The notes under the pieces were generated by a model. The model saw only the letters and a program-made list of their open reading frames with translations. It was not told the origin of the DNA and searched no databases. Shown here one piece after another: positions 7,662 to 38,995 of a stretch of DNA of 38,995 bases (the first letter of the stretch is position 1; each line of letters opens with the position of its first letter). Position numbers and translations under genes: made by a program. Source of the stretch: Candidatus Uhrbacteria bacterium (lineage in GTDB: Bacteria; Patescibacteriota; Patescibacteriia; UBA9934); assembly GCA_943358395.1 (NCBI GenBank), contig CALRGY010000010.1, forward strand, positions 1 to 38,995. The letters run 5' to 3'.

Positions 7662-8267
7662 CTACCCCCTCGCAATACTTATCCTCACAATCTCCTTCAC
7701 TCCCCCTTCCCGCAATATCGCCTCAGCCGCACTCATGGTTGCTCCTGTTGTTTCAACATCGTCAAACAGCATCACTCGCGTTGGCACTTCAATTCCCTGC
7801 CGCATCGAAAATGGATTCTTTTGAAACGCCTTCTCTCGCATACCATGCGACGCATTCGCCTGCGCAAACCATCGGTGCTTTCGTTCAAGGAGTTCTACAA
7901 CAGGCAACTGTAAGAATTCGCCTACACCGCGAGCGCCGTGCTTTGCTTGATTAAATCCCCTGTTCCTCTCTTTCCACGACGACAACGGAATTGGCACAAT
8001 CGCTTCGATGTTTTTTGTCTCAATCAGGCTCTTCCACGGCGCGATCCTTGATCGAATCAGCGCGACAAGACGAACGAGTCCATCTTCATCTCCATCATAT
8101 TTCCATGCACAAATCAGCTTCCGAATCACCGGATTCGCATATGCAAATGGCGGGCCATCAAAAGACGACTCCGCCATACATGTCATGCATAATAACGATC
8201 CTTCAGCCTTGCATCGTACGCAATACCGTGGAAACATCGCATCCCAAATCACACACCGTCTTTCCAT
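7662..8267 (-). CDS. comF: ComF-like phosphoribosyltransferase
   Basis: ComF-family proteins are needed for DNA uptake in naturally competent bacteria, probably on the cytoplasmic side. The 201-residue product has an N-terminal zinc module (CVRC and CMTC, ~17-31), the family motif RNRGFNQA (~104-111) and the PRPP-binding loop MLFDDVETTGAT (~170-181). It is the last gene of the type IV secretion cluster and its start overlaps the previous gene by 19 bases. Together with dprA at 16.6 kb this suggests the secretion genes may serve DNA uptake. Confidence 0.88.
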   Translation of the reverse strand: MERRCVIWDAMFPRYCVRCKAEGSLLCMTCMAESSFDGPPFAYANPVIRKLICAWKYDGDEDGLVRLVALIRSRIAPWKSLIETKNIEAIVPIPLSSWKERNRGFNQAKHGARGVGEFLQLPVVELLERKHRWFAQANASHGMREKAFQKNPFSMRQGIEVPTRVMLFDDVETTGATMSAAEAILREGGVKEIVRISIARG

Positions 8268-8836
8268 GTGTATCCATCAATCAACCACGTAGTTCCGGAC
8301 TTCACCAACGTCACCGTAATCGACTGATACTTCTTTGTGGTATTGGACGGATCGCCGTTTGTTTCTTCGCGTTGCGTTGTCATTGTTAGCACTGTTTGGG
8401 TTGCACTTGCGCTGACTGTTTTTGGCGCGGTCACTACCAATGTTGAAACGCCGTAATACGCACCCGTCGATGATGCGCGCACATCTTTCGCTAATGACGT
8501 GAGCTTCTTTTGAAATGCCACGGTCGCCATTGGCAGAACGTCATCAATGTTCTCTGCATCTGCTTCAGAAGAATAGCTTCCAAAGCGTTCCACGAACGTG
8601 CGTGCAACAGTGATCGCTGATGTTTCTTTGATGATCGGCGTTGCAACCTCAGGTGCAGTCGACGAGCCAGATGTCGATGCTCCAGGTTTATCCTTTGCTG
8701 TATTGATGGTTTGCGACGCAGGAATCGTCACCGCTGTTGGTGCGACCGTTCTATTCCTCCACATCAATCCCAGCGCAATACACAACATCAGTACCGCGAT
8801 CGCAAGCCCAATCTCAATTTTCGTCTTTCGTTCCAT
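8249..8836 (-). CDS. VirB8/TcpC-like inner-membrane protein of the T4SS
   Basis: The protein has one N-terminal TM segment (~9-26, IGLAIAVLMLCIALGLMW), a Ser/Thr/Pro/Ala linker (~30-70), and a ~120-residue soluble domain that looks NTF2-like: a helix with FVERFGSYSSEAD, then strands ending VTLVKSGTTWLIDGYTWKDG. This is the layout of VirB8 and TcpC proteins that bridge the membrane ATPase and the channel. The fold assignment is inferred from layout and position (four bases downstream of virB4), not from a strong motif. Confidence 0.6.
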   Translation of the reverse strand: MERKTKIEIGLAIAVLMLCIALGLMWRNRTVAPTAVTIPASQTINTAKDKPGASTSGSSTAPEVATPIIKETSAITVARTFVERFGSYSSEADAENIDDVLPMATVAFQKKLTSLAKDVRASSTGAYYGVSTLVVTAPKTVSASATQTVLTMTTQREETNGDPSNTTKKYQSITVTLVKSGTTWLIDGYTWKDGV

Positions 8837-8839
8837 AGA

Positions 8840-10756
8840 TTATGCATTACGTTCATCTGCTTGCTCTTGCGCAAGTCGTTTCTTTTCATTCTCAATATCG
8901 AGCAACTGCTGTGGATTCGTGGTTACAATCTGATCCTCTGTATACGACGCAACAATTTTGATTGCGGCATGCTTTTGCCCTGCAAAGAAAATTCCTTCCC
9001 CCACCGCAGATTCAAGGAGCAAATACTTTTCGCTTTGTGTAAGGTTGAATGTTTCCGCAATTCTATCCACTCCTGCTGGCGACTGCTTCAGCAAAAGCTG
9101 CAGTGATGAGTTCGTGACAATCGCTTGCCCGTATGACGATGTTAAGAAGTCGTTCACGTCTTGCGTAATGGTTGTTACACCAAGGAAATATTTTCGCGCA
9201 CGCTTCACAAGTGCAAAAATAAACTTCGCTGAGTCTTCATTTTGCATGAGCCACCACGCTTCGTCGATGACGAGCACACGCTTCTTACGCTCGCTGCGCA
9301 CCACATTCCAAATATAGTTCACGATGGTATAAATCGCCATTGCCCGAAGCTCGTCTTCCAGATCTCGCACAGAAAACACCACAAGCTGATTCCGCATCTC
9401 CACAGTGGTTGGTGAATTGAGCAGTCCAGAAAACGTACCAGCAGTAAACTTCTCCAAACGTGCCACCAAATTTTCCCCACCTTGCATGCCCTGGAGCACC
9501 TGCAACAAATCTTCCAAAATCGGGTAATCCGCAATGCCCTCTAATGTTGCCAAGTCTGGCGTAATGTCTCGCTTAGCATACGACTCTAACAGCGCACGAT
9601 CGAGCAAAGAATCTTCTTCTGGCGTAAAGCTGAGCGTTCCTTTTTCACCCATCGGCTTGCCGATCATGATGCGGAGCAATCCTTTCAACGTAATCACCGC
9701 ACTGCGCAAAATATCATCGACCGACGTTTCGTCGCCTTTTGCTCGCGGAAGATCGAACGGATTCACCTTACTCTCCGATGCAAGCGAAACATTGATATAC
9801 GTTCCACCAACAGCATCCGATAACTGCCTGTATTCCATTTCAGGATCGATAACAATCACATCGACCCCCATCATCATCGAACGCAAAATCTCCAGCTTCA
9901 CTGCATAACTTTTTCCAGCACCAGACGTTGCAAACACCACAGAATTCGCATTCTGTAAGCTGAACCTGTCAAAAAGAATGAGCGAATTATTGTGACGATT
10001 GATGCCGTACAGAATGCCATTATCACTGGTAACATCCGACGAAATAAACGGATACGAAGAAGCAATAGGCGATGTGTTCATGTTGAACGTAATCGCGAGC
10101 TCGTCGTTCAAGAGTGGTAACGTAGAATTGAAACCCTGTTCCGTTTGATAGAATCCGCGCTTCGAGTAAATAAGCTTCTGACCGAAGATTGATTCAATTT
10201 CTTCCGTGCGCTTATCTAATTCCTCTGTACTCTTGGCATAAATGGTGACGTAAAACGCGAATTGAAAAAAATGCTCAATGCCTTGAGTAAGGTCGTCGCG
10301 CAGCTGCTCAACGTCACGCAATGCCGTTTCACGAATAGGGTCGCGTGGCTTTCCATTCTCATTATCTGAAACAATCTGCGCCTCAAGCACACCCACTTTG
10401 TTGCGCAGCTGCTTCAAAATAACTGCTGGAGCAATGGGGTAAAAATACATCGCAATGTCAATGGTGCTGTTGTAATTAATAATGGGCGCGCCCCAGCCAA
10501 TCCCAACATATCGGGGATATGTTGTGACGAAAAGTGTACGAACAAACATGTCGCCCAAGTGCAAATGTGCCGACGTTACTTCAAACGACGACGGCGCAAT
10601 AAGGTCGCGAACACTTACCGTGCCACGGCGATACACGCGCTCTTCTTCCAGCGTGGTACGCTCGCTCATTGCTCGCTCTTGCGCTTCCGAGAGCTTCTTT
10701 GGCTCTGCTACGGAAGTGATGGCTGCTTTCTTGGGATCGTTTACATCGAATGCCAT
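8840..10756 (-). CDS. virB4: VirB4/TraC-type T4SS ATPase, catalytic part
   Basis: This cytoplasmic ATPase energises substrate transfer or assembly of a type IV secretion channel. Walker A ATSGAGKSY lies near residue 275-283 and Walker B VLVIDEAWW near 497-505, followed by a KRARKYFLGVTTITQDVNDF segment typical of VirB4. The first ~60 residues are charged and without family match, and the region 70-260 is the middle domain. The usual VirB4 N-terminal domain is encoded by the separate gene just upstream (one base gap), so VirB4 is split in two here, as in other CPR genomes. Confidence 0.9.
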   Translation of the reverse strand: MAFDVNDPKKAAITSVAEPKKLSEAQERAMSERTTLEEERVYRRGTVSVRDLIAPSSFEVTSAHLHLGDMFVRTLFVTTYPRYVGIGWGAPIINYNSTIDIAMYFYPIAPAVILKQLRNKVGVLEAQIVSDNENGKPRDPIRETALRDVEQLRDDLTQGIEHFFQFAFYVTIYAKSTEELDKRTEEIESIFGQKLIYSKRGFYQTEQGFNSTLPLLNDELAITFNMNTSPIASSYPFISSDVTSDNGILYGINRHNNSLILFDRFSLQNANSVVFATSGAGKSYAVKLEILRSMMMGVDVIVIDPEMEYRQLSDAVGGTYINVSLASESKVNPFDLPRAKGDETSVDDILRSAVITLKGLLRIMIGKPMGEKGTLSFTPEEDSLLDRALLESYAKRDITPDLATLEGIADYPILEDLLQVLQGMQGGENLVARLEKFTAGTFSGLLNSPTTVEMRNQLVVFSVRDLEDELRAMAIYTIVNYIWNVVRSERKKRVLVIDEAWWLMQNEDSAKFIFALVKRARKYFLGVTTITQDVNDFLTSSYGQAIVTNSSLQLLLKQSPAGVDRIAETFNLTQSEKYLLLESAVGEGIFFAGQKHAAIKIVASYTEDQIVTTNPQQLLDIENEKKRLAQEQADERNA

Positions 10757-10757
10757 A

Positions 10758-11441
10758 TTAGAAATGAGTTTCTACGCGCAGCTTTCCAACGTCTACCAAT
10801 TTCTCTGTGTCGTACACGTCTGGGTTATACGAAGAATAATACAGCTCAATAAGCCCCTGTGTATCGAGCAATGCCACCTGCAAGCTCATGCTCGAAAGTC
10901 CAGAAGCAACGGTGGACACTTGACGCATAAGGGTATCGCGCCGTAATTGAAAGTGCTTTTCGTTGAGTGTAATAATTTTTGCCGGGGAAAACGCGCTCGT
11001 AAGCTTTGTTATGAACCCCTTTCCTTTTTCGGCATCTTCCGAGGGGTCGTACGGCACCACCACAAAAAAACGCTTCTGCATAATTTGCCCCAGCTCCACC
11101 AGCTCTTGAATGAACGACGTATAATCACGAATCTGTGTTCGTAATAATTCATTGTGGATTGTTTCTTCTTGATGTTTCAATGCCGCAATATAGCCGTCAA
11201 CATTCATGCGCCGAGACTGAATGACGACTTGTAACGGATGTTCTAACCCATTCAAAAACTGCATGTACCCCTGAATAATCGCCTGTTGTTCATCTTCACT
11301 TTTGAGAGCGAAGTTCACGCTCGATACCATCAGTACCGCACGCAACGTCCCGTCTTTCATGACCACACAGTCCTCACGAATTTCTGCAATATCTAAAAAC
11401 CGCTGCGTGGGTTGCCCGGATTTTTGCTTTGTATTGGACAT
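10758..11441 (-). CDS. TraC/VirB4 N-terminal-domain protein
   Basis: The 227-residue protein has the features of the VirB4 N-terminal domain: FLDIAEIREDCVVMKDGTLRAVLMVSSVNFAL at ~15-46, a helix with MQFLNGLEHPLQVVIQSR, and a FFVVVPYDP strand (~122-130). There is no Walker motif, so it cannot hydrolyse ATP itself and likely pairs with the ATPase encoded next to it. The gene lies two bases after the PrgI gene and one base before virB4, pointing to co-translation. Confidence 0.85.
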   Translation of the reverse strand: MSNTKQKSGQPTQRFLDIAEIREDCVVMKDGTLRAVLMVSSVNFALKSEDEQQAIIQGYMQFLNGLEHPLQVVIQSRRMNVDGYIAALKHQEETIHNELLRTQIRDYTSFIQELVELGQIMQKRFFVVVPYDPSEDAEKGKGFITKLTSAFSPAKIITLNEKHFQLRRDTLMRQVSTVASGLSSMSLQVALLDTQGLIELYYSSYNPDVYDTEKLVDVGKLRVETHF

Positions 11442-11443
11442 AG

Positions 11444-11884
11444 TTATACGTCGTCTTCGGCGTGATACACACCACCAGTATTCACGACCAGCGTTAATTC
11501 ATTGAGCCGCGATCGTTCAAGCGGCGCCTTCCGCACTGGTGGTGGCGCCACGTCTTCGTCTACCTTTTTTAAAAAGAAGCGAATATCCGCATCGCTCAAT
11601 GTTTTGTCCCAAATACGCAAATGTGGTTTACGAAATGTTTGAATAAAATTCAGCACAATAAAATGAAACGGTTGACCGTTCACCTTAGCAAATGAAAACG
11701 CCAAACCAATGCACAGCACCGGAACGCCAAGAAGAATAACGTAAATCACATTAAGGAAAATGCGATAAATCACAAACTCCACCAACAGCACACCTAACAT
11801 AATCAAAAATTGCCGCGCAGTAATGGGGCCAATAATTTTGGATTCGACATCGAGGAATTGTGGAACCACGAATTGGTTGGGCAT
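11444..11884 (-). CDS. PrgI family protein (VirB3-like)
   Basis: This small inner-membrane component has the family start FVVPQFLDVESKIIGPITARQFL (~5-27), two close TM segments (~27-70), then a soluble tail with FHFIVLNFIQTFRKPHLRIW. PrgI proteins regularly precede VirB4 in Gram-positive and CPR type IV secretion loci, as here. The tail past residue 110 is variable and charged. Confidence 0.88.
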   Translation of the reverse strand: MPNQFVVPQFLDVESKIIGPITARQFLIMLGVLLVEFVIYRIFLNVIYVILLGVPVLCIGLAFSFAKVNGQPFHFIVLNFIQTFRKPHLRIWDKTLSDADIRFFLKKVDEDVAPPPVRKAPLERSRLNELTLVVNTGGVYHAEDDV

Positions 11885-11906
11885 GAAAAAGAGAGAATTC
11901 CTTCAG

Positions 11907-11912
11907 AGTATA
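11907..11912 (-). promoter_or_regulatory. Internal promoter -10 before the PrgI-VirB4 genes
   Basis: TATACT on the minus strand, 22 bases before the PrgI start. Unlike most -10 boxes here it leaves a short leader that carries GAAGGAATT, a fair ribosome-binding site. Confidence 0.4.
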
Positions 11913-11918
11913 TCACCT

Positions 11919-13307
11919 CTAGAATCGGATTCGATCGTTAAGTGAGGCAATCGCGCGAATCTCTGCCGGGCTTACACTCTCTTCACCGGCACCGCGGCGA
12001 CGCGTGGCGATTTCTGCCACACTCACGCCTTGGGCAAGTGCCGCAGACGTCATAGCAACATACAACTGATGCATAGGACTTTTTCGCCAAGCATTCACAC
12101 CCCTCACTCGCTCCTCGTATGAGGAATGCTCGATGGTCGCCAACATATCTTCAATTTTTTGTGCGGCATCTGCTGGCACTGTAGAAAGCCTACGGAATTC
12201 AACCGGGGTCATGCCTCCCAACTCATCAACAGGGCCGACTAATCGGCGGACTGGCTGAATATCGGTCACAGGAACCGATGCATCGTGCTGCGGCGCAACA
12301 GAACCAACGGTGAGCATTGGCATCACCGGCGTTGGCCTGTTTGCTAAGGCTGCCTGCACCCGTTTCTCTTGCGGAATTGCTGCCACCTGCTGTGCCGTTT
12401 CTTCATGCGATGTGCGCGCCATGCTTACGCGAGCACTTGGAAGCACTGGCTCGATATGCTCCACAGCCGCACGTTTGGTCAGCGCAGAAAAACGTTGGTC
12501 GAGAATGTCATTCTTTGGTGCATTCACCACCGGCACTTCTGCCGCAACTTCGTGCGACGGAGAAATTTCCAGCACACGTGACGTGCTCAACTCTTTCGTG
12601 CTTCCCTCATTCTCAGAAGAACCGCCTCCAGCAAACTGCGTTTTCATTTCACGTTCAATCTCTTGAATGGCAACGTCCCCACTGTTCACCATTTGTCCCG
12701 TTACTCCACCCACAATATCCACCATATCTCTCCGGCCATCAATCGTGGAAAGAAGCTTTTGTGCAGCATCGGGGCTTAGCCCAAGCCCGCCAATCGTTTG
12801 CGCACGAGAAAAAAACGTCAACGTCGATTCTTTCGTTTTTTCCCCCGTCCAGTATGCGTTCACTAAAAAAGCACAACGCTTAATGAGTACTTCCGAGAAA
12901 TTCATCTGCAACGTTTCATCCAGCTGGGTGGCAAATGTTTCCGCATTCATCTTCATTTTCCCCACCCGAGACTTTGGATACTTCTGTACGTCTCCGCCCC
13001 ATGCCCCAATAGACGTTGCAACACCAGGAACATGCTCTTCCAGCGGCAACAATCGAAAGCCCACCACATCACACGCCAGCCGCTTTGCACGCTCCTCCTC
13101 AATGCCGAATGCTTCCATGAGCATCGTTGGGAACACGTCGAGTGTGAGTGCTTCGTCCAGCACCGCATCTGTAAGGTCGAGCAATTCCACTGCCCGTTCC
13201 TTTGGCAACGCAAACTTTTCCAAAATCGTCTCAAACACCGTCATCACCGAACCATCCATCAAAAACGCCTGCACCGGTGGTATCTTGATTAATTCAGCAA
13301 TGGGCAT
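11919..13307 (-). CDS. Hypothetical protein of the T4SS cluster
   Basis: I do not recognise this 462-residue protein. The N-terminal half (~1-215) is mainly helical, with repeated Leu-rich helices (TVFETILEKFALPKERAVELLDLTDAVL) and a later conserved-looking part with FFSRAQTIGGLGLSP. Residues ~225-340 are Ser/Pro/Val-rich and likely disordered. The C-terminal ~100 residues (VGPVDELGGMTPVEFRRL, then SPMHQLYVAMTSAALAQGVSV) look folded. There is no signal peptide or TM segment, so it should be cytoplasmic. It lies between the VirB6-like gene and PrgI, so a role with the secretion machine is likely by context only. Confidence 0.75.
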   Translation of the reverse strand: MPIAELIKIPPVQAFLMDGSVMTVFETILEKFALPKERAVELLDLTDAVLDEALTLDVFPTMLMEAFGIEEERAKRLACDVVGFRLLPLEEHVPGVATSIGAWGGDVQKYPKSRVGKMKMNAETFATQLDETLQMNFSEVLIKRCAFLVNAYWTGEKTKESTLTFFSRAQTIGGLGLSPDAAQKLLSTIDGRRDMVDIVGGVTGQMVNSGDVAIQEIEREMKTQFAGGGSSENEGSTKELSTSRVLEISPSHEVAAEVPVVNAPKNDILDQRFSALTKRAAVEHIEPVLPSARVSMARTSHEETAQQVAAIPQEKRVQAALANRPTPVMPMLTVGSVAPQHDASVPVTDIQPVRRLVGPVDELGGMTPVEFRRLSTVPADAAQKIEDMLATIEHSSYEERVRGVNAWRKSPMHQLYVAMTSAALAQGVSVAEIATRRRGAGEESVSPAEIRAIASLNDRIRF

Positions 13308-13325
13308 AGAAAATATTGCTCACCA

Positions 13326-13353
13326 AACAAAAGAACCAGAAGGAATCTGGTTC
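13326..13353 (-). terminator. Terminator after the VirB6-like gene
   Basis: On the minus strand GAACCAGA-TTCCT-TCTGGTTC is followed by TTTTGTTT. It would partly separate the VirB6-like gene from the rest of the cluster. Confidence 0.55.
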
Positions 13354-13371
13354 AATTGTATCACGATCATA

Positions 13372-16300
13372 CTATCGGAACGGATCGCCTCCTCCTGCTC
13401 CTCCTGCTGGCGGATCATATCTGCCCCCTGTTGGATTTGGCACATCTGGTGCAGGCGTTGGTTCATCCTGGAATCGCAACGGTGGACGTGCCTTTGGCGT
13501 AAACGGCGCAGGCGCCGGAGCTGGTGCAGCCGATGGTGCAGGTGCCGGAGTACCAGAACCCCGAACCTGCCGAACCACCGGTTTTCGTCCTGCTGACGCT
13601 CCCGATCGATACTCATCCGGTGGACGAGGCGCTGCAGAATTCACTCGTGGCGTTGGAGCAGGACGTGCATTTCCTCTCCCATTCAAGAACTCCTCATCAG
13701 GACCCGATGATGCAGGAGCGGGCGCAGCCGGCGCTCCAGTTCCAGAGCTTCCGCTACCACCTCCTGATGAACCAGAACCTCCACTCCCACCGCCCGCACT
13801 TGACGTACGACGCTCTCCATATCTTCCACCGGTACTAATATCCTTTGACATTTCCTCAATTTCCTTCGCGCGCTTTGCATCCCCACCACTTACCGCTTTG
13901 GCATGTTCTGCAAGAAGTGCGCGCTTACGCACCGCCAAAGAAGCTTCTGCCTTCTTTCCGTCAGCACCCCCAGCCATGCGAGTATTCTCTAATTGACGGA
14001 TCATGTTTCTATTCGTTCGCTTCGCAACTAATTCCGTAAGAACACTTGCAGGTGCACCTTCAGGAATAAGAAGATCGACGTGACGAGCATTCGTTGCATC
14101 TCCTGCGAGCATGGCATCCATTTGTGCAGAAAGACGGGTATCCGCCGTATCTTCCTGCGCAAGCTCTCCAACATTGCTCCCAAAAACATCAGCCAAATTC
14201 TTTCCATTAGCAAGAAATGATGCCGAAGCTGCTCCGTGCACACCGGCTTCTAGATTTTCTGCTTTTGTGGTTTGAAGAACATCGAGTACAGCATCACTTC
14301 TCGTCGATCCCACTCCGTCTGCATCTTTCTGGAGCAACATTCCCGTACTCACCAAGGTTTTCACGCTCGCAGAAGATGTTGCGGTATCTCGCACATCATC
14401 AGCGGTAATGGTAGCCGCCATCGCTTTACGCTGATCATTCCTTCCAGCACCATCCGCGATATAATCCCACGCGTTCGTCTTTCCATCTTCTGTAATATAT
14501 TTTTTATTTGCTGCCTGAACTGCTTTATCCGCATATGCTGCCGCATTCTGAACTTTAAAGTCCACTTTTCCTCGCTTATCAGCCCTTGCTTTATAATGCG
14601 TCTCGATGCTATCTGCTTTCGCCTTGATATAAGCCTCCTCATCTCCATACGCCCCTCTTCCGCCCTCGGGCTCAATAAGATGAGGGTTCGCAGTGTACGT
14701 ATCCTGAATAAGTTCCTTCTCTTCCGCAGAGAGCTGCATAAATGCTGCGCCTTCCTTTGTGGAAGCGTACGCTAATTGATCGCCCAAAACCTTTCCGTAA
14801 TCTGCGGCAGCAAGTGCTTTATAATCAGAATTAGGATCTTTCTTCTTATAATTTTCTTCCAAATCTTTACGAAGCTTATCTTGTGCTGCCACCGTTGTCG
14901 CAAGTGCTTTCGACCGTGCGCCATGTACTTCTCCCTTATATTGAGCAAGTACACCGCGACCCGAACCAGCAAGTGACTCCCCCTGTTTGATCATTGCCTC
15001 TGCGCGCTGAATACCTTCGCGATCATTAGCATCTTTCGCGGTTTTTAATGCCGCTTTACCATTAGTGACCTTCTCATTTCCATTCACAACATCGGCACGT
15101 GCTAAATTGTATGCCGTCTTCTGATCGTCCGTCATGTGTTCTGCATCTTCAGCGCCACCTTTATTTCGCTTCTTCCGTTCTTCTTTTCCAATTCCAACAA
15201 TAGAAGCTCCCGCACCGGCCAATGAGCCACCGATCATCCCTGCAACCAATCCACCGCCCAATGCCTTGGTCATACCAGTTCCGATATTCGCCAAGCCTTT
15301 ACCAAACTTTTGAGAATAATTTGGTGCAATCTTTCCAATACCAGGAACTTCCATCCCTCCAATTTTTCCACCTTCAAATGCAGCTTTACCCAAACGCTTT
15401 CCAGAATTCAATGGGCGAGCAATTCCTTTCAATAATCCAATGCCGGCACCCTCACTCAACACCTTACTCGCAAAGCCACCCATGCCGGCGGCGCTGGCGG
15501 AGGCTTGTTGCATGCCGCCAAGAAGAATGGCGAGGGCGAGGAACATGCCAAGGAAATTGTCGAGTTCAAACATTGTTAATGGAATACCAGCATCGGTTTG
15601 GGATTCTGGCATGGGAAAATCCTCGGTTTGGGCGAGGTTGGATCCGGATGATGCCGCAAGGGCAAGCCACAGGAAAAAGACCATGATCGGGCCAAACATG
15701 AGGGCACTCGTAAATTTCTTCCACCATTCTTTGTAACTACTCTCTGCGGCATGAAAAATGTCCTTTACCCCAATCATGAAAAACGCCAATGGCGACATGA
15801 TAATGACAATCCAGAGAATGATAATGCGCCACACGAATGCTGCGGCAAGAAGGAAGATCACGCCAAGAATTCCTAAAAGGACAATAAATTGTAAATACGC
15901 ACCAACTAAAAATTGAAATGCCTCCACACCGGAACCATTTTTATTAATCTCTACAATAAAATCTTGAGCAAATTGCCCGTAGGTATTCAAACTAAGCATC
16001 GCGGCAAAGTTTCCGGCAGCAATCGAAACAATTGCATTCACAAAGGTGAACATGATCACTTGGCTGACGTCGATGAGGAATCCACAAATCAGCTTACTGA
16101 AGTTAACGAGCACAATGGAGATAAACAATTTTGGCAATTGCTGCGTCCAGTTTGCTTTTTCGTACCCAATCACCGTCATCATTGCAATAACGATTAATAT
16201 AATGACAACGAACATGTTCACCACGTCACGCACCAAGCTCCAGCCCAAGTTGGTAATGTGACTGTTGTAAAAACCGTTGTAGCCCAAAATCGGAATAACG

Positions 16301-16548
16301 ATGGATTGAATAAGGAGCAACGTGAGCTGCCCAAGGCCTCCCGTCAATACTTGAATGATCTTCGCCAACGTGAGCATGGTCGTGTCGATCGGGTTCATGG
16401 CGAAATCCGTCCAACTCGTATGCGAGCTCGCAAAAGAATACTGTAAAGGAATAATCACAAGAACCAACGCTATCGTGAGCGCGATGATTGCTTTATGTTT
16501 TGTGCACCACGCACCAATCCTCCCCACAGAATCCAAAAACTTTCGCAT
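13372..16548 (-). CDS. VirB6/TrbL-like T4SS membrane protein with long soluble tail
   Basis: The N-terminal ~370 residues hold about eight hydrophobic segments (including TIALVLVIIPLQYSF, MFVVIILIVIAMMTVIGY, FIVLLGILGVIFLLAAAFVW and FLGMFLALAILLGG), the layout of VirB6/TrbL channel proteins. The rest (~380-1058) is hydrophilic: Ala/Lys/Glu-rich helices likely to form coiled coil, then a Gly/Ser and Pro/Ala low-complexity tail (GGGSGGSGSSGGGSGSSG; repeated PAPAP). Extended VirB6 proteins are known; the tail's function is unknown. The start ATG follows a -10 box by nine bases. The GC-rich tail opens long spurious frames on the other strand. Confidence 0.85.
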   Translation of the reverse strand: MRKFLDSVGRIGAWCTKHKAIIALTIALVLVIIPLQYSFASSHTSWTDFAMNPIDTTMLTLAKIIQVLTGGLGQLTLLLIQSIVIPILGYNGFYNSHITNLGWSLVRDVVNMFVVIILIVIAMMTVIGYEKANWTQQLPKLFISIVLVNFSKLICGFLIDVSQVIMFTFVNAIVSIAAGNFAAMLSLNTYGQFAQDFIVEINKNGSGVEAFQFLVGAYLQFIVLLGILGVIFLLAAAFVWRIIILWIVIIMSPLAFFMIGVKDIFHAAESSYKEWWKKFTSALMFGPIMVFFLWLALAASSGSNLAQTEDFPMPESQTDAGIPLTMFELDNFLGMFLALAILLGGMQQASASAAGMGGFASKVLSEGAGIGLLKGIARPLNSGKRLGKAAFEGGKIGGMEVPGIGKIAPNYSQKFGKGLANIGTGMTKALGGGLVAGMIGGSLAGAGASIVGIGKEERKKRNKGGAEDAEHMTDDQKTAYNLARADVVNGNEKVTNGKAALKTAKDANDREGIQRAEAMIKQGESLAGSGRGVLAQYKGEVHGARSKALATTVAAQDKLRKDLEENYKKKDPNSDYKALAAADYGKVLGDQLAYASTKEGAAFMQLSAEEKELIQDTYTANPHLIEPEGGRGAYGDEEAYIKAKADSIETHYKARADKRGKVDFKVQNAAAYADKAVQAANKKYITEDGKTNAWDYIADGAGRNDQRKAMAATITADDVRDTATSSASVKTLVSTGMLLQKDADGVGSTRSDAVLDVLQTTKAENLEAGVHGAASASFLANGKNLADVFGSNVGELAQEDTADTRLSAQMDAMLAGDATNARHVDLLIPEGAPASVLTELVAKRTNRNMIRQLENTRMAGGADGKKAEASLAVRKRALLAEHAKAVSGGDAKRAKEIEEMSKDISTGGRYGERRTSSAGGGSGGSGSSGGGSGSSGTGAPAAPAPASSGPDEEFLNGRGNARPAPTPRVNSAAPRPPDEYRSGASAGRKPVVRQVRGSGTPAPAPSAAPAPAPAPFTPKARPPLRFQDEPTPAPDVPNPTGGRYDPPAGGAGGGDPFR

Positions 16549-28733: not shown

Positions 28734-28958
28734 TTATTTCGATCCTAAAAAATGTTCAACACTCATCCCAGAATCTTTGATAATCTGCATCAGCAAACCC
28801 ACGCCAATCTCTTTATGCAATGGCACGGTAATTTTTCTTCGTGCAAAATCGGTGTGCACGAGTCGAGCATGACTCCCCTTTTGACGAACAACACGATACC
28901 CCTCGTGTTCCAAACGTCGAATCACGTCTTTACCCGAAAACCCCGCAAGGAGCGTCAT
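28734..28958 (-). CDS. hicA: HicA-like mRNA interferase toxin
   Basis: The 74-residue product has the HicA double-stranded-RNA-binding-like fold: FSGKDVIRRLEHEGYRVVRQKGSHARLVH, with the catalytic His in GSH (~29-31), then ITVPLHKEIGVGLLMQIIKDSGMS. Start 28958 overlaps the hicB stop (ATGA), so translation is coupled to the antitoxin. An in-frame start upstream would lie within hicB. Confidence 0.88.
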   Translation of the reverse strand: MTLLAGFSGKDVIRRLEHEGYRVVRQKGSHARLVHTDFARRKITVPLHKEIGVGLLMQIIKDSGMSVEHFLGSK

Positions 28959-29203
28959 ACGTGAACCATGTGCACACTCACACTCGGCATATAACGCTTC
29001 CGTACCTTCGGTGCATCTTCCGCGCACAGCGCGATAGCTTCTTGAATATTTTTTAACGCAGCGTCAATCGTTTTTCCTTGACTGTAGCACCCCTCAAACA
29101 CCGGACACGATACCCAATATCCTCCAGAAACCTCTTCCTGAACAATCACCGGATACCCCCGAGATTCTCCATGAACCATCGCAACCTTTTTTATCGATTT
29201 CAT
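28955..29203 (-). CDS. hicB: HicB-like antitoxin
   Basis: The 82-residue protein has the HicB partial RNase-H-like fold: YPVIVQEEVSGGYWVSCPVFEGCYSQGKTIDAALKNIQEAI. No DNA-binding C-terminal domain is present, so self-regulation through an operator is not obvious. Here the antitoxin gene comes before the toxin, eight bases after the glycyl-tRNA synthetase stop, so the pair probably depends on transcription from that housekeeping gene. Confidence 0.88.
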   Translation of the reverse strand: MKSIKKVAMVHGESRGYPVIVQEEVSGGYWVSCPVFEGCYSQGKTIDAALKNIQEAIALCAEDAPKVRKRYMPSVSVHMVHV

Positions 29204-31830: not shown

Positions 31831-32262
31831 ATGAAGCAGTACCGCTTCTGGGCCGCCATCCCTTTCGCGGCGGCGTTCGCCGTCGCGTCGTGCGGGCCGA
31901 GCAATCGATCCGCATCAGATACCGGCGTTTATGACGCCGACGCTGATGCGGACACCGATTCCGACACCGACACCGACGCTGACGGCGACACCGACGCGGA
32001 TGCGGATGGCGACACCGACACCGAGAAACTCCCCGCGGAGTTGCTCGGTCGTTGGTGCCTCGAGGATGGCGTAACCTGCGCCACCCTTGGGGAAAACGGG
32101 GAGAGTACGCCATTCGGCGCGCTTTCCCCGTCCGTCCCGGGTAGCTGGTCGACCAGCTACCCCATCCAGTTCGTCGTTCGCGACGCGCTAGGTGAGTTTC
32201 ACTCAGCCGAAGAGGCTGAAGTGGAATGGGATGGTGACCTGTGGTTGCTCCTTAGGGAGTGA
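31831..32262 (+). CDS. Small Asp-rich lipoprotein
   Basis: The 143-residue product has a lipoprotein signal (MKQYRFWAAIPFAAAFAVAS then Cys21), a linker of alternating Asp with Ala, Thr, Ser or Gly (~36-68, DADADTDSDTDTDADGD), and a small C-terminal domain with one disulfide-like pair (RWCLEDGVTC) and several Trp. The acidic run could bind cations or act as a spacer. Shine-Dalgarno AAGGAGGTGA is ideal. GC content is high, as in the M23 lipoprotein gene. Function unknown. Confidence 0.8.
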   Translation: MKQYRFWAAIPFAAAFAVASCGPSNRSASDTGVYDADADADTDSDTDTDADGDTDADADGDTDTEKLPAELLGRWCLEDGVTCATLGENGESTPFGALSPSVPGSWSTSYPIQFVVRDALGEFHSAEEAEVEWDGDLWLLLRE

Positions 32263-32374: not shown

Positions 32375-35300
32375 TTATGGAGTGACAACGATCACCCCAT
32401 CATAACTCACAAACGGCACATTGTCTGTTTCCAACGCACTCGCATAGATACACTCATCATCTGGGGCCACTGAGTCTACAATCCCATCCTCATCAAAACA
32501 CCCATTCGTCCCATCTCCCCCAGCCGTACACACCCCAGTACACCAACCCCAATTATCGCGGATGTGGACGCGGGGGCGGAAGGTGCAGGAGGTGCCGTCG
32601 GTGGAGCAGGGGGCGTTGTCGGGAATGCCGTCGGATCCGCCGCTGTCGCAAGAAGGTAATCCGGAAGGGTTACAGGTGTAAATGTGGTTGTAGCTGAAGT
32701 AATTTGAGTCGCAGCTTTCGCTGTTCATGCCCCATTCATAATCGTAGTCCGCACTGCCGCTGGTGGTCATGTCGCAAATAGAGACTTCGGTATCGGATTG
32801 CAAACCACGATGGTTTTTGTAGAAGTTTTTGCCAGAAGATGAACCAGTCTGGTCGTCGCTACCCACTTTATCCCCCCAATCCACAATCACCCTGCGGATA
32901 GGAAGTTGGTTCTTATCTGCTGCCGCATAGAACTTAAGGTATGCCCGATAGAACCCATCTGCCTCAATATTCCCGTCATTCTGATCATTCACCGTGAGCG
33001 GATGTGCCTGATCTTCTTCGCACTTATCATTAAAACAGTTATCCATATCCACTGCCCACACAGAAGGAGGGTTGCCAAATTCTGATCGACGATCCCAATC
33101 ATATGATGAGTGATCATCATTCTCTCGTTCCGTTTTCTCAAACTCACCGTCTCCCCAAAGCTCCGTTTCCGTATCGTTATCCTTAGGATTGCCTGATCCC
33201 ACCGTAGTGCTTTCATCGTACACACCGTCTACGAACTTCCACACGTTCAAACTCTTCGCGAACAATCGATCAAAAATGTGGGAAGGTTCACCACCGGATG
33301 CGCTAACGTTATCGAAGGTGAACGACGTTCCATCGTCAAACTCATCACCGAAGAGTCCGGAAGAATCGATATAGAACTCGTACCCATCAAAGTACGTATA
33401 TGACGCTGCTTCTGCCGCATTAACATCGCCACCCACTTCGTCGCCCGAGGCACATGTCAAACTATTAGGATTACCTGTTGGATTATAGAACGTCCACGTC
33501 GATGACGACTCTTCTCGACACTGATTCACGTACGAAGGATTATTATCTCCCTTTTCCGTCTGCATATCATTCAGCACCTGCGCTGCGCCAAACGGTGAAT
33601 TCTGAGTACTTCTCAGATACGCAAACGCTTCGTAATCCGCCGATGTAAGTCCCATGGAGAGCAACGTCTGCGCCGAAGAGACGATGCTTCCGTTTTTCAA
33701 TATGTCCGTCCACGCCGCAGAGCCGTCTTCCGGATCCCCCGAAGCAACCTGTGTTACCTCCTTACATCCCATATACGGTGTAAAAGGAGAAGTACTACTA
33801 CCACCGTAGTCCTTCCAGCCACAGTCTCCACTCCCAGAAGCACAACTCACCTTCTGCTCTTCCAGCATAGTGCCCCACGATGTCTGCCAAAATGGCGTTC
33901 CTATATTGGTTGTTGTATAGAAATCGTGATACTCCACGCCATATGTCGTACAGTCAGTCACGTCGTTATACAGATCCTTAAAACCTTCTGCGGTATACAT
34001 CCAATATCTATCCAGATGATAACCATCGGGTTGATATTTTTCTATATATTTCCATGCCTTATCCTGAATGCGCTCGATACAATCCGTTCCATCGTTCGTT
34101 ACGCTGTTTATTGGCACGCATATAAATGGACAATCCGCATCACCAGATCCTGATGTGCATTGATCATTTCCGCCAGAACCAGTGACATTCGCTGCAGTTG
34201 CTGAGCCGCTTTCCGTTCCATCAATGTCTGCGCCATCGTACGGACCAGCAAGCATCACAAATCCTGCAGGACATGCCGTATTTTCATTCATACACGAATA
34301 CCATGGTTCCGGTTCTGACTTATCTCGCTCTAAACATCCCCACTGTGGATTCACACTCGCATACGGCGCTAGGTATGTGCAGTAGTTGGTTTCTTCGAAG
34401 TATCCTGCCTCCGTGTACTTTGCATACAAATCTGTACTACCAGAGAGTTGGTCGACGGGAAGCCAGGAGATACAGGCGTTGAGGTCGCGATCGCCAAGGA
34501 TATTGGTGGAGGAATCGCGTTCTAAGCAATAGCCGTCCATACCGAGCACGTCGTCAATTTTGGTACGGTAAATACAGGTACCAATGTCGTCAGCACTACA
34601 TGTTGCTTCTTCGATAACCACGCCATCGTACGTCTCTGCCCCGGCTCCTGCGCTGCCATCATCACTACAGAACGCCCCATTAAATTCACCGCCAGAACAG
34701 ATGCCGACTGAAGCATCTAATGGGAAGTCTGTGTCTTGACCGAAGTACTTCTGCTCCTCACCGTACGTAACTTTCTTATACGAACAATCACACTCTTCCC
34801 CGGCCACACACGTTTTCACGTTCTCAAAGTTCTCCCGATATGTTACCGGCGATTCACCATAATCCGGATTCGTCGTTTCGGTTTGGTCATACGGGTTGCG
34901 CCAGTTGGTCACAACATCCGTTGGGAATGGGCTGTTCACTTCTGGGTATCCACGGCATTCCTTCTCATCTGCTAACGTCACATCAAACGTGCTACCCGTT
35001 GGGGTAAGCGTACATTCATCGCGAATACAGGTACCCTGCTTGAAATTCACCGATGGGTAGAAGATTTCGCCACTGCTACACGATGCGTCAGAATCGGTGG
35101 CATCATAACCCTCGATAACTGGATCATTGCCTTCGGTGGCACAGAACGTGCCCACGCATTCTTGGGTTCCCGAACAATCATCCGAAGAAGCGCACGATGT
35201 GGTGGAGACGGTGTAACACGAACCGATAACGCATGATCCACCCGTTGCGCCGCAACTATCCGATGATGCGCACGGAGAACCGGTTTCTGCACAATACCCC

Positions 35301-38300
35301 ACCGTACACACGTCGCCGTAATCCCCTTCACACGCACCGGCAACGTACGCCAAACTATAATCTGCGTCGCTTTCTGAGGCGGGATTTGATATGTCTTTTT
35401 GCGTGAGCTGATCTACCGGCAACAAGTCTGGCAACGCAAAGCCGGAATACTCTTCGCCGTACCAAGAAACATCACGCTCGGCATATGTTTCCTCGTCGAG
35501 CACTACCGCAGGATCATCATTCTTCCACGCAGAGCAGAAGGAGGCGTTCCCATCGGAGGAGTACTCGGTACAGAGAGAAATATCGCCACAGATAGTTTTG
35601 TAGCTTCCGCTCTTTTCATCCCATGTGGTTTGCGCATCAGAGCAGCTCAGCCATTCACTGCACTGCCTATCGCGATTCACTTTAAGGATGACATTTGCAT
35701 CGTTTTCAAGACGAGGTGCGATCACTGACGTTGAGTTACAGCCTCCATTAACCGTCTCTCCCGATTCACTGGTTAATGGTCGGCAATCATCGTTTGTGTA
35801 ACAAGAGCCGTCGTACACATAAGCACCGGTACCCGATGGAGCGCCACTAATATCGTAGAACTTTTCCGCACCATACCGGCAGCGATTCTCACACAAATCC
35901 ACAACTTCCCCATCGGGGGTCGTAATCGTAGAGTCCTCAGCATCACAATCAATCGGCTCTACCATTCCGTTTGGCACATCGCCGAAGAGGTCATCGGCGT
36001 GGGTGCTTGCCACGTATGTCGCACTCATGTTCGCAGTTTTTTCTGGATCTGCGCTGTTGTTGAACAGTCCGCACCCTTCTTTTTGGCTTACTTCGCCATT
36101 GCACCGCTGACTATCTGGCAAACTGTTATCTGCCAACGCATTATTATCTAAATAGAAGTAACTTGTTCCATTGGCATCGCCGTACAACGCATCGGAACCG
36201 ATGTCTGTAAGGTCTTGGTATTCCGTACAGCTGTCATATTCGGAAGAACATGCTCCCACCCAGTTTGCGTAATCGGTATCCCCATTTCTCCAGATACCCG
36301 AAACATCACCACCAATAACGTATTGCGGCTCGCCGTCCCCATTCGTTGCACACAATTCATCCTTCCCTGTTTTGAACCAGCCGCTATACGTCACATTATC
36401 GACGGTAACGTTGGCGCGATACTCACAGGTTTGACTCTGTGGATCCTTGAAGTACGACGTGACATTATCTTTATCTGTCCACGCATTACAGAACAATTCG
36501 CCCACGGAACAGAGCGTGGTGGCGTAATCTGCTGGCGTGTTCATGAAATACTTTGCCGTCCAGCTTTCTACAGCAGTGTGGTCTTGGCTAAACACTGGCA
36601 ACCCTACTTCCGTACAGCCCGCAACATCACTTGAGCATTCCACACTGTCATTCAGCACGAGGAACACATCTTTATCTGCAGGGGAAATCACCGTCGATGC
36701 CACATAGGAAAGGTGCACCGGCAAACTGGTATCAGGCGCATACCAGTCCAGATTGAATTCACACGATGTTTTTCCAACACCAATGGTGCACAGGAACTGG
36801 CTCGTGCTGTCGTATGCCGTGCTCGTGCTGTCGAGTGCGTAATAGCATGACGTTGCTTCCGTCGCCTCTGCGCCGTCGACGGTGCTACATACTGCGCCGT
36901 ACACGGCTGCTGTGGTGGCGTCGGATTCGTGCGTCATGAAGTACGCAGAGCAACCCACTTGGGATTCTTCACACAACGAACTAAAGCTCTTCAAGAACGA
37001 CGTCTCGCTGTTCTGATCGGTATATTCCTGGCAACCAAGCATGTACTGCGGAGAAGATGCTCCTCCTTCGGTTTCGTCACATTCTGCTGGGGTTACCCAC
37101 GAATCCTTGATGACATCGATATTATCTTCCCCTTCACGCAAGATAACGTTATCAACGTACAGCGTGTCGGTATTCGATCCGAGCGTGAACACTAACGCCG
37201 ACGATCCGTTCCCGAAATCTGGGAATGCGGTGCTCGTCATGTCGAGTGGACCGTACGTGTATTGATGCCAGTCGGTATCCAATGTGATTGCGCCAGTTCC
37301 GCTCGCGAATGATGCATCGATCGCCGCTGTTCCCCCAGCAAAAGCAGTATCGAACCCGACGGATAATGTTCCGGTTCCTTTTGCCCAGAACGAGAGTGTG
37401 TATGTTTTGTCTGCGAAGAGATCGTTCGCTAACGTTCCGCAGTAATATTCGCCGTTGACGATGGTGCAATTTCCTCCGAGCGTTCCCGTGGTTGCGGCGC
37501 ATCCTTCATCGGTGACGGCTTCTGCACACACCGTGCTGCTGCCACCAACATACGTCCAAATTGGTTCACCAACTGATGACAATGAATGCCCATCCGTTGC
37601 GACCGATTCATTCGAAAGCGTTACTTTTGTTGCGCTCACGGAATCCCAGTTGGTCAAATCTCCGTCCTCGAAATACTCGATGAACGCCTGACGACTATTA
37701 CGGCTTCTACCGCCAGTGTATTCCCGGCAGCCAGATTCCGTTTCCGAACAGGTAAAGCTCTCGTCAGCATAACCATAGTACCGACATTCCGACGTGCTGG
37801 AATCGAAGAATCCACCGGATGCCTCACAGTTCGATTCCCCATCATCAGCGCCATCGCCGTTCAGATCCTCGCCGAGACCAACCAGGGTAGTTTTGCGATA
37901 ACTTACACACAGATCATCCACGGTGACGGTTAGCGACCATGCACGATAATGGATAATACCGTCGACATCGTAGAATTCACGACAGTCGGGGTTGAGAATC
38001 GTGTCATCGTGTTCATCGCACGATTCATCATCGCTATCGAGGGTGCCCGATGTGATCGAATCATCGTTACAGGTGATTCCCGTTGCGGTCGCTGTCCAGT
38101 TGGTACATGGTGCCGCATTCGGTGCGTCATCGGTTCCCAAGCTTGCAGCATACGTATACGCCGATGACCCCATGTCTGACTCTAAAAGATTCCATGTTTT
38201 CAATTGATAGCCCGCCGTGTCCGACCCTTCCCATGTATAAAACACCGCCGCGTCATCCAAACTCGACACGTTTAATGCCGCTTGATCGGTAGTGACGCAC

Positions 38301-38995
38301 GCACGAAGACTGGTGAAATACTCCGCTGCTTCGGTGGTGATATTCGTAAATTCGTCACAGCCGACCGCTTGTGCAGAACATGTTTCCGCACTATCGGGAA
38401 TGAAGTACACAGGGAAACTGCCGGTTGGCTCGTATTTCGTCGCCTCTTGTTTAAACGTGTCGTACCCCACACACGTTTCTGGGCAGACATCGAGCGCGTC
38501 GGTAATACCCGCCACTGAAGGATCGCCGTTCGTTGGCGTGTACAACGAGCAACCAACATCAGTTTCTGAGCACATCGTGGCGTAGTCGGCACAATCTGCT
38601 GGGTCGGTCGCTGGATCGCCAGTACAGCCCAAATATGCCGGTGCCACTTTCACATACGAAAGGTCGAGCGTGCTACTGCTATATCCCTCGTGATACTCCG
38701 ATGCCTCAGACTCTTGCTCGAGCTGTACTTCGTCAAACCATAAGTCACCACCCTTGAGATACGCATTTACTGCGATTTCCGCGGACGTATCTGCGAGCAC
38801 CGGAACGGTAAACGTACAAGTGAATCGCTCGTAGTTTGTATCGGTTGGCGTTCCCGTTACTTGAATAATGGCATAGCCGGTATACGTATAGAGCGCACAA
38901 TCACCGGAAAGAGCGTACCCACGCAAATCAATTGCCGTTGCGTCGCTCGAGAAGAAGGCGAGCAATGCGGATGTTGATGCACCGGTTCCAGAACC
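32375..38995 (-). CDS. Giant Cys-rich extracellular protein (partial, 5' end beyond window)
   Basis: The reading frame is open through the right edge, so at least 2,206 C-terminal residues are encoded here. Cys-rich units recur throughout, of the form C-x-n-GC-x-E/Y-Y/F (for example ESGCREYTG, MLGCQEYTD, VGCSAYF, AGCTEVG). Jelly-roll carbohydrate-binding-like domains appear at ~30-75 (LWFDEVQLEQ) and ~440-610 (TLSFWAKGTGTLSVGF, LYVDNVILREG). An EGF-like Cys cluster (CAETGSPCASSDSCG) lies in the middle. The C-terminus has a PKD-like domain (RRVIVDWGD, FSYNHIY, RVHIRDNWGWC). No TM anchor is seen at the C-terminus. Similar giant proteins occur in CPR genomes; surface adhesion or sugar binding is inferred. 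A bidirectional terminator follows. Confidence 0.85.
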   Translation of the reverse strand, partial: GSGTGASTSALLAFFSSDATAIDLRGYALSGDCALYTYTGYAIIQVTGTPTDTNYERFTCTFTVPVLADTSAEIAVNAYLKGGDLWFDEVQLEQESEASEYHEGYSSSTLDLSYVKVAPAYLGCTGDPATDPADCADYATMCSETDVGCSLYTPTNGDPSVAGITDALDVCPETCVGYDTFKQEATKYEPTGSFPVYFIPDSAETCSAQAVGCDEFTNITTEAAEYFTSLRACVTTDQAALNVSSLDDAAVFYTWEGSDTAGYQLKTWNLLESDMGSSAYTYAASLGTDDAPNAAPCTNWTATATGITCNDDSITSGTLDSDDESCDEHDDTILNPDCREFYDVDGIIHYRAWSLTVTVDDLCVSYRKTTLVGLGEDLNGDGADDGESNCEASGGFFDSSTSECRYYGYADESFTCSETESGCREYTGGRSRNSRQAFIEYFEDGDLTNWDSVSATKVTLSNESVATDGHSLSSVGEPIWTYVGGSSTVCAEAVTDEGCAATTGTLGGNCTIVNGEYYCGTLANDLFADKTYTLSFWAKGTGTLSVGFDTAFAGGTAAIDASFASGTGAITLDTDWHQYTYGPLDMTSTAFPDFGNGSSALVFTLGSNTDTLYVDNVILREGEDNIDVIKDSWVTPAECDETEGGASSPQYMLGCQEYTDQNSETSFLKSFSSLCEESQVGCSAYFMTHESDATTAAVYGAVCSTVDGAEATEATSCYYALDSTSTAYDSTSQFLCTIGVGKTSCEFNLDWYAPDTSLPVHLSYVASTVISPADKDVFLVLNDSVECSSDVAGCTEVGLPVFSQDHTAVESWTAKYFMNTPADYATTLCSVGELFCNAWTDKDNVTSYFKDPQSQTCEYRANVTVDNVTYSGWFKTGKDELCATNGDGEPQYVIGGDVSGIWRNGDTDYANWVGACSSEYDSCTEYQDLTDIGSDALYGDANGTSYFYLDNNALADNSLPDSQRCNGEVSQKEGCGLFNNSADPEKTANMSATYVASTHADDLFGDVPNGMVEPIDCDAEDSTITTPDGEVVDLCENRCRYGAEKFYDISGAPSGTGAYVYDGSCYTNDDCRPLTSESGETVNGGCNSTSVIAPRLENDANVILKVNRDRQCSEWLSCSDAQTTWDEKSGSYKTICGDISLCTEYSSDGNASFCSAWKNDDPAVVLDEETYAERDVSWYGEEYSGFALPDLLPVDQLTQKDISNPASESDADYSLAYVAGACEGDYGDVCTVGYCAETGSPCASSDSCGATGGSCVIGSCYTVSTTSCASSDDCSGTQECVGTFCATEGNDPVIEGYDATDSDASCSSGEIFYPSVNFKQGTCIRDECTLTPTGSTFDVTLADEKECRGYPEVNSPFPTDVVTNWRNPYDQTETTNPDYGESPVTYRENFENVKTCVAGEECDCSYKKVTYGEEQKYFGQDTDFPLDASVGICSGGEFNGAFCSDDGSAGAGAETYDGVVIEEATCSADDIGTCIYRTKIDDVLGMDGYCLERDSSTNILGDRDLNACISWLPVDQLSGSTDLYAKYTEAGYFEETNYCTYLAPYASVNPQWGCLERDKSEPEPWYSCMNENTACPAGFVMLAGPYDGADIDGTESGSATAANVTGSGGNDQCTSGSGDADCPFICVPINSVTNDGTDCIERIQDKAWKYIEKYQPDGYHLDRYWMYTAEGFKDLYNDVTDCTTYGVEYHDFYTTTNIGTPFWQTSWGTMLEEQKVSCASGSGDCGWKDYGGSSTSPFTPYMGCKEVTQVASGDPEDGSAAWTDILKNGSIVSSAQTLLSMGLTSADYEAFAYLRSTQNSPFGAAQVLNDMQTEKGDNNPSYVNQCREESSSTWTFYNPTGNPNSLTCASGDEVGGDVNAAEAASYTYFDGYEFYIDSSGLFGDEFDDGTSFTFDNVSASGGEPSHIFDRLFAKSLNVWKFVDGVYDESTTVGSGNPKDNDTETELWGDGEFEKTERENDDHSSYDWDRRSEFGNPPSVWAVDMDNCFNDKCEEDQAHPLTVNDQNDGNIEADGFYRAYLKFYAAADKNQLPIRRVIVDWGDKVGSDDQTGSSSGKNFYKNHRGLQSDTEVSICDMTTSGSADYDYEWGMNSESCDSNYFSYNHIYTCNPSGLPSCDSGGSDGIPDNAPCSTDGTSCTFRPRVHIRDNWGWCTGVCTAGGDGTNGCFDEDGIVDSVAPDDECIYASALETDNVPFVSYDGVIVVTP

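Follow-up and report, generated by a model that had tools for sequence, protein, structure and literature searches.

The giant gene and its predicted export

The window analysed here is the whole 38,995-nt stretch of contig CALRGY010000010.1 (positions 1 to 38,995, forward strand; assembly GCA_943358395.1, Candidatus Uhrbacteria bacterium). It holds the 3′ part of a gene for a giant cysteine-rich protein, hereafter the giant, and the genes of a type IV secretion system (T4SS), which lie on that strand too, about 16 kb further downstream. The giant is a strong candidate for the part by which cells of its class touch a target surface, because its first domain is common to a short protein of T4SS operons. 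A preliminary description of the window, made from the sequence alone, had proposed an exported, cysteine-rich surface protein with recurring GC-x-[EY]-Y units, carbohydrate-binding-like domains, a PKD-like end and a role such as host-cell attachment. The class of the organism is probably ABY1 in GTDB.

The open reading frame (ORF) in the window encodes 2,206 residues and is open at its 5′ end. Within the organism's own genome (912,413 bases in 28 contigs), a search placed the remainder on contig C13, which opens with a 149-base stretch identical to the one that closes the window. The joined gene runs in one frame of 2,942 codons with no stop, gives 2,940 amino acids from its ATG with 123 Cys, and occupies about 1% of the genome. 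The protein is real and larger than claimed in the preliminary description, which counted more than 2,200 residues. Relatives with an intact single-frame gene, such as L037 (2,978 amino acids), show the same order across the junction and so back the join.

The N-terminus is a Sec-type signal sequence, MKGSLQKIFAITLLLGTVCIPSSTFA-A, judged by inspection from hydropathy and an A-x-A-type site, and such sites also occur in many homologues. Beyond the signal sequence, no further membrane segments were seen by hydropathy in the giant or its homologues, and a hydrophobic C-terminus or membrane anchor was found in none of the 40 homologues with a complete 3′ end. With a signal sequence and no other membrane segment, the giant is a predicted Sec-exported protein, and the recovered 5′ part bears out the export that had been proposed from the 3′ part.

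Domain architecture

Residues 1–412 comprise the signal sequence and an N-domain (about residues 30–412) with no credible match in Pfam or PDB. It is followed in order by M1 (about residues 556–655), CBM1, M2, CBM2 and M3 (Table 1). A Cys module of about 100 residues with the core C-x5-GC is present in three copies, which alternate with two carbohydrate-binding module (CBM) domains of CBM_4_9 type. Profile comparison gave 90.6% (E 1.3e-6) for M2 against M3, 76.1% (E 2.3e-5) for M1 against M3, 60.1% (E 8.6e-5) for M1 against M2 and 0.4% for the M1 region against CBM2; M1 is thus the least certain copy. The two CBM-like domains match each other at 96.5% (E 9e-10). CBM2 matches PF02018 in 33 of 41 homologues (best 2.6e-9), with the window's own copy alone matching weakly (E 0.024), and matches PDB entry 4xup with E 8e-14, while the CBM1 profile finds CBM structures in PDB (2zew, E 1.2e-6). 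The best structural matches of these domains include modules of S-layer-associated endoglucanases. By profile match, both domains have a predicted CBM_4_9 carbohydrate-binding-type fold, in agreement with the carbohydrate-binding-like domains noticed earlier.

The GC-x-[EY]-Y unit fared less well in its original form. The strict motif occurs only twice in the giant (mean 0.05 and maximum 2 in 2,000 shuffles), and it is a fragment of the Cys module. What does recur is C-x(4-8)-GC-x-x-[YFLW], counted 7 times where shuffles lead one to expect 0.36. Sequence searches of Pfam, NCBIfam and PDB gave no credible match for the Cys modules and Cys regions, so that the repeat is still a domain without a name, as had been said. 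No consistently supported enzymatic or toxin domain, and no SLH or other envelope-binding domain, was found in the regions of the giant scanned with Pfam.

Towards the C-terminus lies a hypervariable segment (Table 1). Among three proteins of one genus its identity is 31–33%, compared with 60–76% upstream and 63–69% in the C-terminal domain downstream. Its length ranges from 220 to 1,118 residues across homologues, the shortest coming from the truncated homologue L039, and none of 41 versions has a Pfam domain. A recognition segment would have this appearance, but phage pressure or relaxed constraint could equally produce it. The Cys-rich C-terminal domain has no match in Pfam or PDB. Its motif VDWGDG...DNWGW is PKD-like in look, yet PKD was matched in Pfam by none of 35 homologues, and the PKD-like end was dropped.

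Distribution and conservation

With the N-terminal part as query, the giant was found in 53 of 60 relatives of the order. A profile of this part, run on 238 class genomes that are each at least 90% complete, found it in 222, mostly with one match each. When 380 genomes were sampled evenly over the phylum, 42 matched; 38 belong to the same class and 4 lie outside, 2 of these being marginal. The search for homologues that had been suggested thus shows a protein near-universal in its class. Forty fetched homologues, one of which runs off its contig, are 2,359–3,841 amino acids long and contain 68–167 Cys. In a 41-member alignment, 71 positions of the present protein do not vary at all, 42 of them Cys, and the spacing between several conserved landmarks is constant. 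A scan of IMG/VR with the window protein gave no matches.

Linkage to the T4SS locus

The T4SS genes of the window are listed in Table 1; the label VirB6-like derives from the place in the operon, the hydrophobic segments and profiles made for this analysis, not from Pfam. In loci of deeper branches (L091, L099, L101, L103 and L104), VirB6 follows directly after the giant, and PrgI and VirB4 lie further downstream wherever the locus is long enough to reach them. PrgI was found in 29 of 30 sampled genomes of the class, mostly assemblies of few contigs, and in 136 of 144 genomes across the phylum. From match coordinates read side by side, PrgI lies 13–32 kb after the start of the giant, on the same contig and strand, in 22 of the 29 class genomes. 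At an assumed chance of 0.016 per genome the binomial P is 4e-34, a value to be read with the relatedness of the genomes in mind, since the events are not independent. The giant thus lies in or beside the VirB6–PrgI–VirB4 operon, conserved across genomes, and is by this arrangement a component of the T4SS (MPF_FATA) operon.

Table 1. Features of the window (all positions are those of the whole stretch)
Feature	Position	Strand	Basis
Giant gene, 3′ three quarters (residues 735–2940)	32375..38995	-	5′ continuation = contig C13:3-2351
CBM1, C-terminal part (full domain residues 656–852; cut by contig end)	38642..38995	-	CBM1 profile against PDB and CBM2
Cys region C (residues 853–1166), with Cys module M2 (about 853–955)	37700..38641	-	Repeat with region D by profile comparison
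CBM2, CBM_4_9-type (residues 1167–1372)	37082..37699	-	PF02018 and PDB matches
Cys region D (residues 1373–1900), with Cys module M3 (about 1373–1533)	35498..37081	-	Profile comparison; invariant Cys
Cys region E (residues 1901–2300)	34298..35497	-	Invariant-Cys alignment
Hypervariable region (residues 2301–2705)	33083..34297	-	Identity drop within genus
Conserved Cys-rich C-terminal domain (residues 2706–2940)	32378..33082	-	63–69% identity within genus
VirB6/TrbL-like multi-membrane protein	13372..16548	-	Operon position and hydrophobic N-terminal part; no Pfam match
T4SS operon protein X, between VirB6 and PrgI	11919..13307	-	Operon context
PrgI (VirB3-like)	11444..11884	-	PF12666, E 2.7e-8
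VirB4 N-terminal/TrsD-like protein	10758..11441	-	Operon position and homologues
VirB4/TraG-type ATPase	8840..10756	-	PF19044, E 9e-28

Short relatives of the N-domain in other classes

The few N-domain-like proteins outside the class are short and are encoded in the T4SS operon, where the order is KsgA, a TSP3 protein, the short N-domain protein, VirB6, PrgI and VirB4. The N-domain profile from 41 giants matches the profile of six short forms at 98.9% (E 1e-17, 209 columns); one member of the short-form alignment (A3), L149, was picked by gene position and not by profile score. In the reverse direction, the short-form profile recovered six giants together with additional short forms from other classes. 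All eight of the latter that were fetched lie between KsgA and VirB6, and likewise those of L136, L137, L138, L148 and L151. The homology of the giant's N-domain to these proteins, as judged from the profiles, is new here.

Like the giants, the short forms (e.g. L136 8882-10495, L137 9036-9980 and L174 7051-7908) have the homologous N-domain, an N-terminal signal-like sequence and the slot between the KsgA/TSP3 protein genes and VirB6, but they differ in length (286–1,112 against 2,359–3,841 amino acids). None of six members tested has a match in NCBIfam. Body segments B to G of the giant were not found in T4SS operons of other classes, and therefore the enlargement appears to be class-specific. 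By eye, some short forms carry PKD- or FnIII-looking extensions. In L170, from another class, a 1,112-aa N-domain protein (8577-11738) and a separate 1,054-aa protein with 34 Cys (11755-15090) both precede VirB6; this arrangement may represent an independent enlargement of the same operon slot.

Discussion

How most ultra-small Patescibacteria find and hold their partners is little understood, and the few genetic data come from Saccharibacteria, in which T4SS and adhesins are essential. Across an entire class the giant is a near-universal candidate for such contact, and both a shared domain and gene order link it to the T4SS. On balance we lean towards regarding it as a class-specific, enlarged, T4SS-linked and disulfide-clamped surface protein that makes contact with a target cell or polysaccharide. 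According to this model, the giant would be exported via Sec and would belong, on the cell surface, to the chromosomal T4SS of the class. Once exported, its N-domain, the counterpart in this class of the T4SS-operon protein whose gene neighbours VirB6, would dock on the envelope complex of the secretion system. The remainder would be a rigid rod made of the three Cys modules in alternation with the two carbohydrate-binding-like domains, and the hypervariable segment before the C-terminal domain would recognise the target, which may be a host-cell glycan or an extracellular polysaccharide.

Host-cell attachment is made plausible by the hypervariable segment, the CBMs and the linkage to the T4SS operon. 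The preliminary description was right about a giant, exported, Cys-rich and CBM-like protein and may be right about its role; it did not notice the link to the T4SS, the hypervariable segment or the repeat unit in its exact form. A more far-reaching version would make the giant the T4SS target-recognition device of the whole class, a disulfide-clamped, CBM-studded rod on the shared T4SS-operon domain with a hypervariable receptor-binding segment setting host range. It would then represent a previously undescribed kind of T4SS contact organelle, and we put this version forward only tentatively, as possible but doubtful. The hypervariable segment offers a specific handle: once expressed, it can serve as bait for the cell or glycan that is targeted.

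Several observations weigh against a T4SS-linked contact role. The giant and PrgI are apart in 7 of 29 genomes. Moreover, KsgA and PrfB, which have no role in the T4SS, keep their place beside the giant just as constantly, and hence synteny alone does not prove a T4SS function. A CBM-like fold would likewise not prove sugar binding. Identity of the N-domain with VirB5/TrbJ found no support, with hhalign probabilities of 1.8 for TrbJ of R751 and 0.7 for TrwJ of R388, plasmids used solely as references for these proteins; being obtained with single-sequence targets, this is a weak negative. AlphaFold2 models of the N-domain and of region C with CBM2, each from two alignable sequences, reached a predicted local distance difference test score of only 35–36. 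Finally, catalysed reporter deposition fluorescence in situ hybridization showed cells of two ABY1 families unattached or on particles of lake snow (PMC9166423), and polysaccharide or particles may thus be the bound surface instead of a host.

The last point also favours a polysaccharide- or particle-binding envelope scaffold, in which the CBM-like domains would bind lake-snow particles, extracellular polymer or the capsule of the cell itself, with the T4SS locus as no more than an old neighbour. Two CBM_4_9-type domains resembling S-layer-associated endoglucanase modules, and the KsgA and PrfB genes as neighbours that persist without functional linkage, would fit such a scaffold. However, short proteins in the T4SS operons of other classes share the N-domain, their genes invariably lying between KsgA and VirB6, and the giant shows no C-terminal membrane anchor and, in the Pfam scans, no SLH or other envelope-binding domain, so that we hold the scaffold to be rather unlikely. 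The giant could also be purely structural, a piece of the T4SS conduit that bridges the cell wall, stands in for the outer-membrane core or pilus tip in a monoderm cell and has no recognition role of its own. Its slot just before VirB6 resembles the position of VirB5/TrbJ in R388 and R751, and a class-wide single copy with dozens of invariant Cys and constant spacing of several conserved landmarks would suit a structural part. A hypervariable segment of 400 residues and CBM-like domains are unexpected in a purely structural conduit, sequence similarity to VirB5/TrbJ is lacking, and this explanation seems quite improbable. That a large, secreted and T4SS-linked protein might be an effector or toxin delivered to a host cell is very improbable, considering its own Sec-type signal sequence, the lack of a consistently supported enzymatic or toxin domain in the regions scanned with Pfam and a C-terminal domain that is conserved, not swapped.

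The T4SS-linked contact protein preferred here can be compared with known systems. T4SS was essential for epibiotic growth in Southlakia epibionticum (PMC10633639). In the main text of a survey of patescibacterial MPF_FATA-type T4SSs, KsgA and ComF lie nearby and PrgB-type adhesins, of the kind that Gram-positive T4SSs employ, are lacking in Patescibacteria (PMC12102498). The window agrees with that account in its PrgI and VirB4 genes, KsgA neighbourhood and ComF-like gene (seen by eye); the giant is not described in the survey's main text. Like PrgB-type adhesins, the giant would serve surface contact in a monoderm T4SS, but it has no C-terminal LPxTG or membrane anchor and matches no such family in Pfam or NCBIfam. 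Patescibacterium danicum (ABY1) encodes FhaB-domain exoproteins of more than 5,000 amino acids that are reported as lineage-specific and without full-length homologues (PMC11809585). These are also giant secreted proteins of the same class, whereas the giant is conserved class-wide and has no haemagglutinin-type Pfam match. The large Cys-rich extracellular proteins of Peribacteria (PMC4736985) are similar in size, Cys content, predicted export and suggested attachment, but form a multi-gene set in another lineage, and the comparison is by description, not by homology. No paper naming the giant family was found in the literature searched, a search whose scope did not extend to preprints and subscription journals.

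Neighbouring genes

The giant is preceded by KsgA and, at position −1 in 37 of 41 loci, by a small protein that combines TSP3-like repeats with a single membrane segment. In the present genome this membrane-anchored protein, with calcium-binding-type repeats, is L003 2358-3113 (C13, minus strand); it is also found in the T4SS operon of other classes and is likely a functional partner of the giant. A DsbA-like thioredoxin and VKOR are encoded side by side at L003 17576-18727 (C13, plus strand), about 15 kb from the start of the giant gene, and belong to the machinery of oxidative folding. The pair shows only that the genome can make disulfides; disulfide bonds in the giant are predicted.

Within the window, a secreted M23-peptidase protein (PF01551; 26330-28276, minus strand), which recurs near the giant and the T4SS in relatives, is possibly a VirB1-like wall opener. 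Directly after VirB4, a 195-aa protein with one N-terminal membrane segment (8249-8836, minus strand) may be VirB8-like. Facing the 3′ end of the giant is a small lipoprotein-like ORF with an Asp-rich DADADTDSD run (31831-32262, plus strand), whose matches, to Sdr/Clf repeats, are weak only. At 28734-29203 (minus strand), a HicA-like small ORF and an overlapping second ORF, seen by eye, are possibly a toxin–antitoxin pair.

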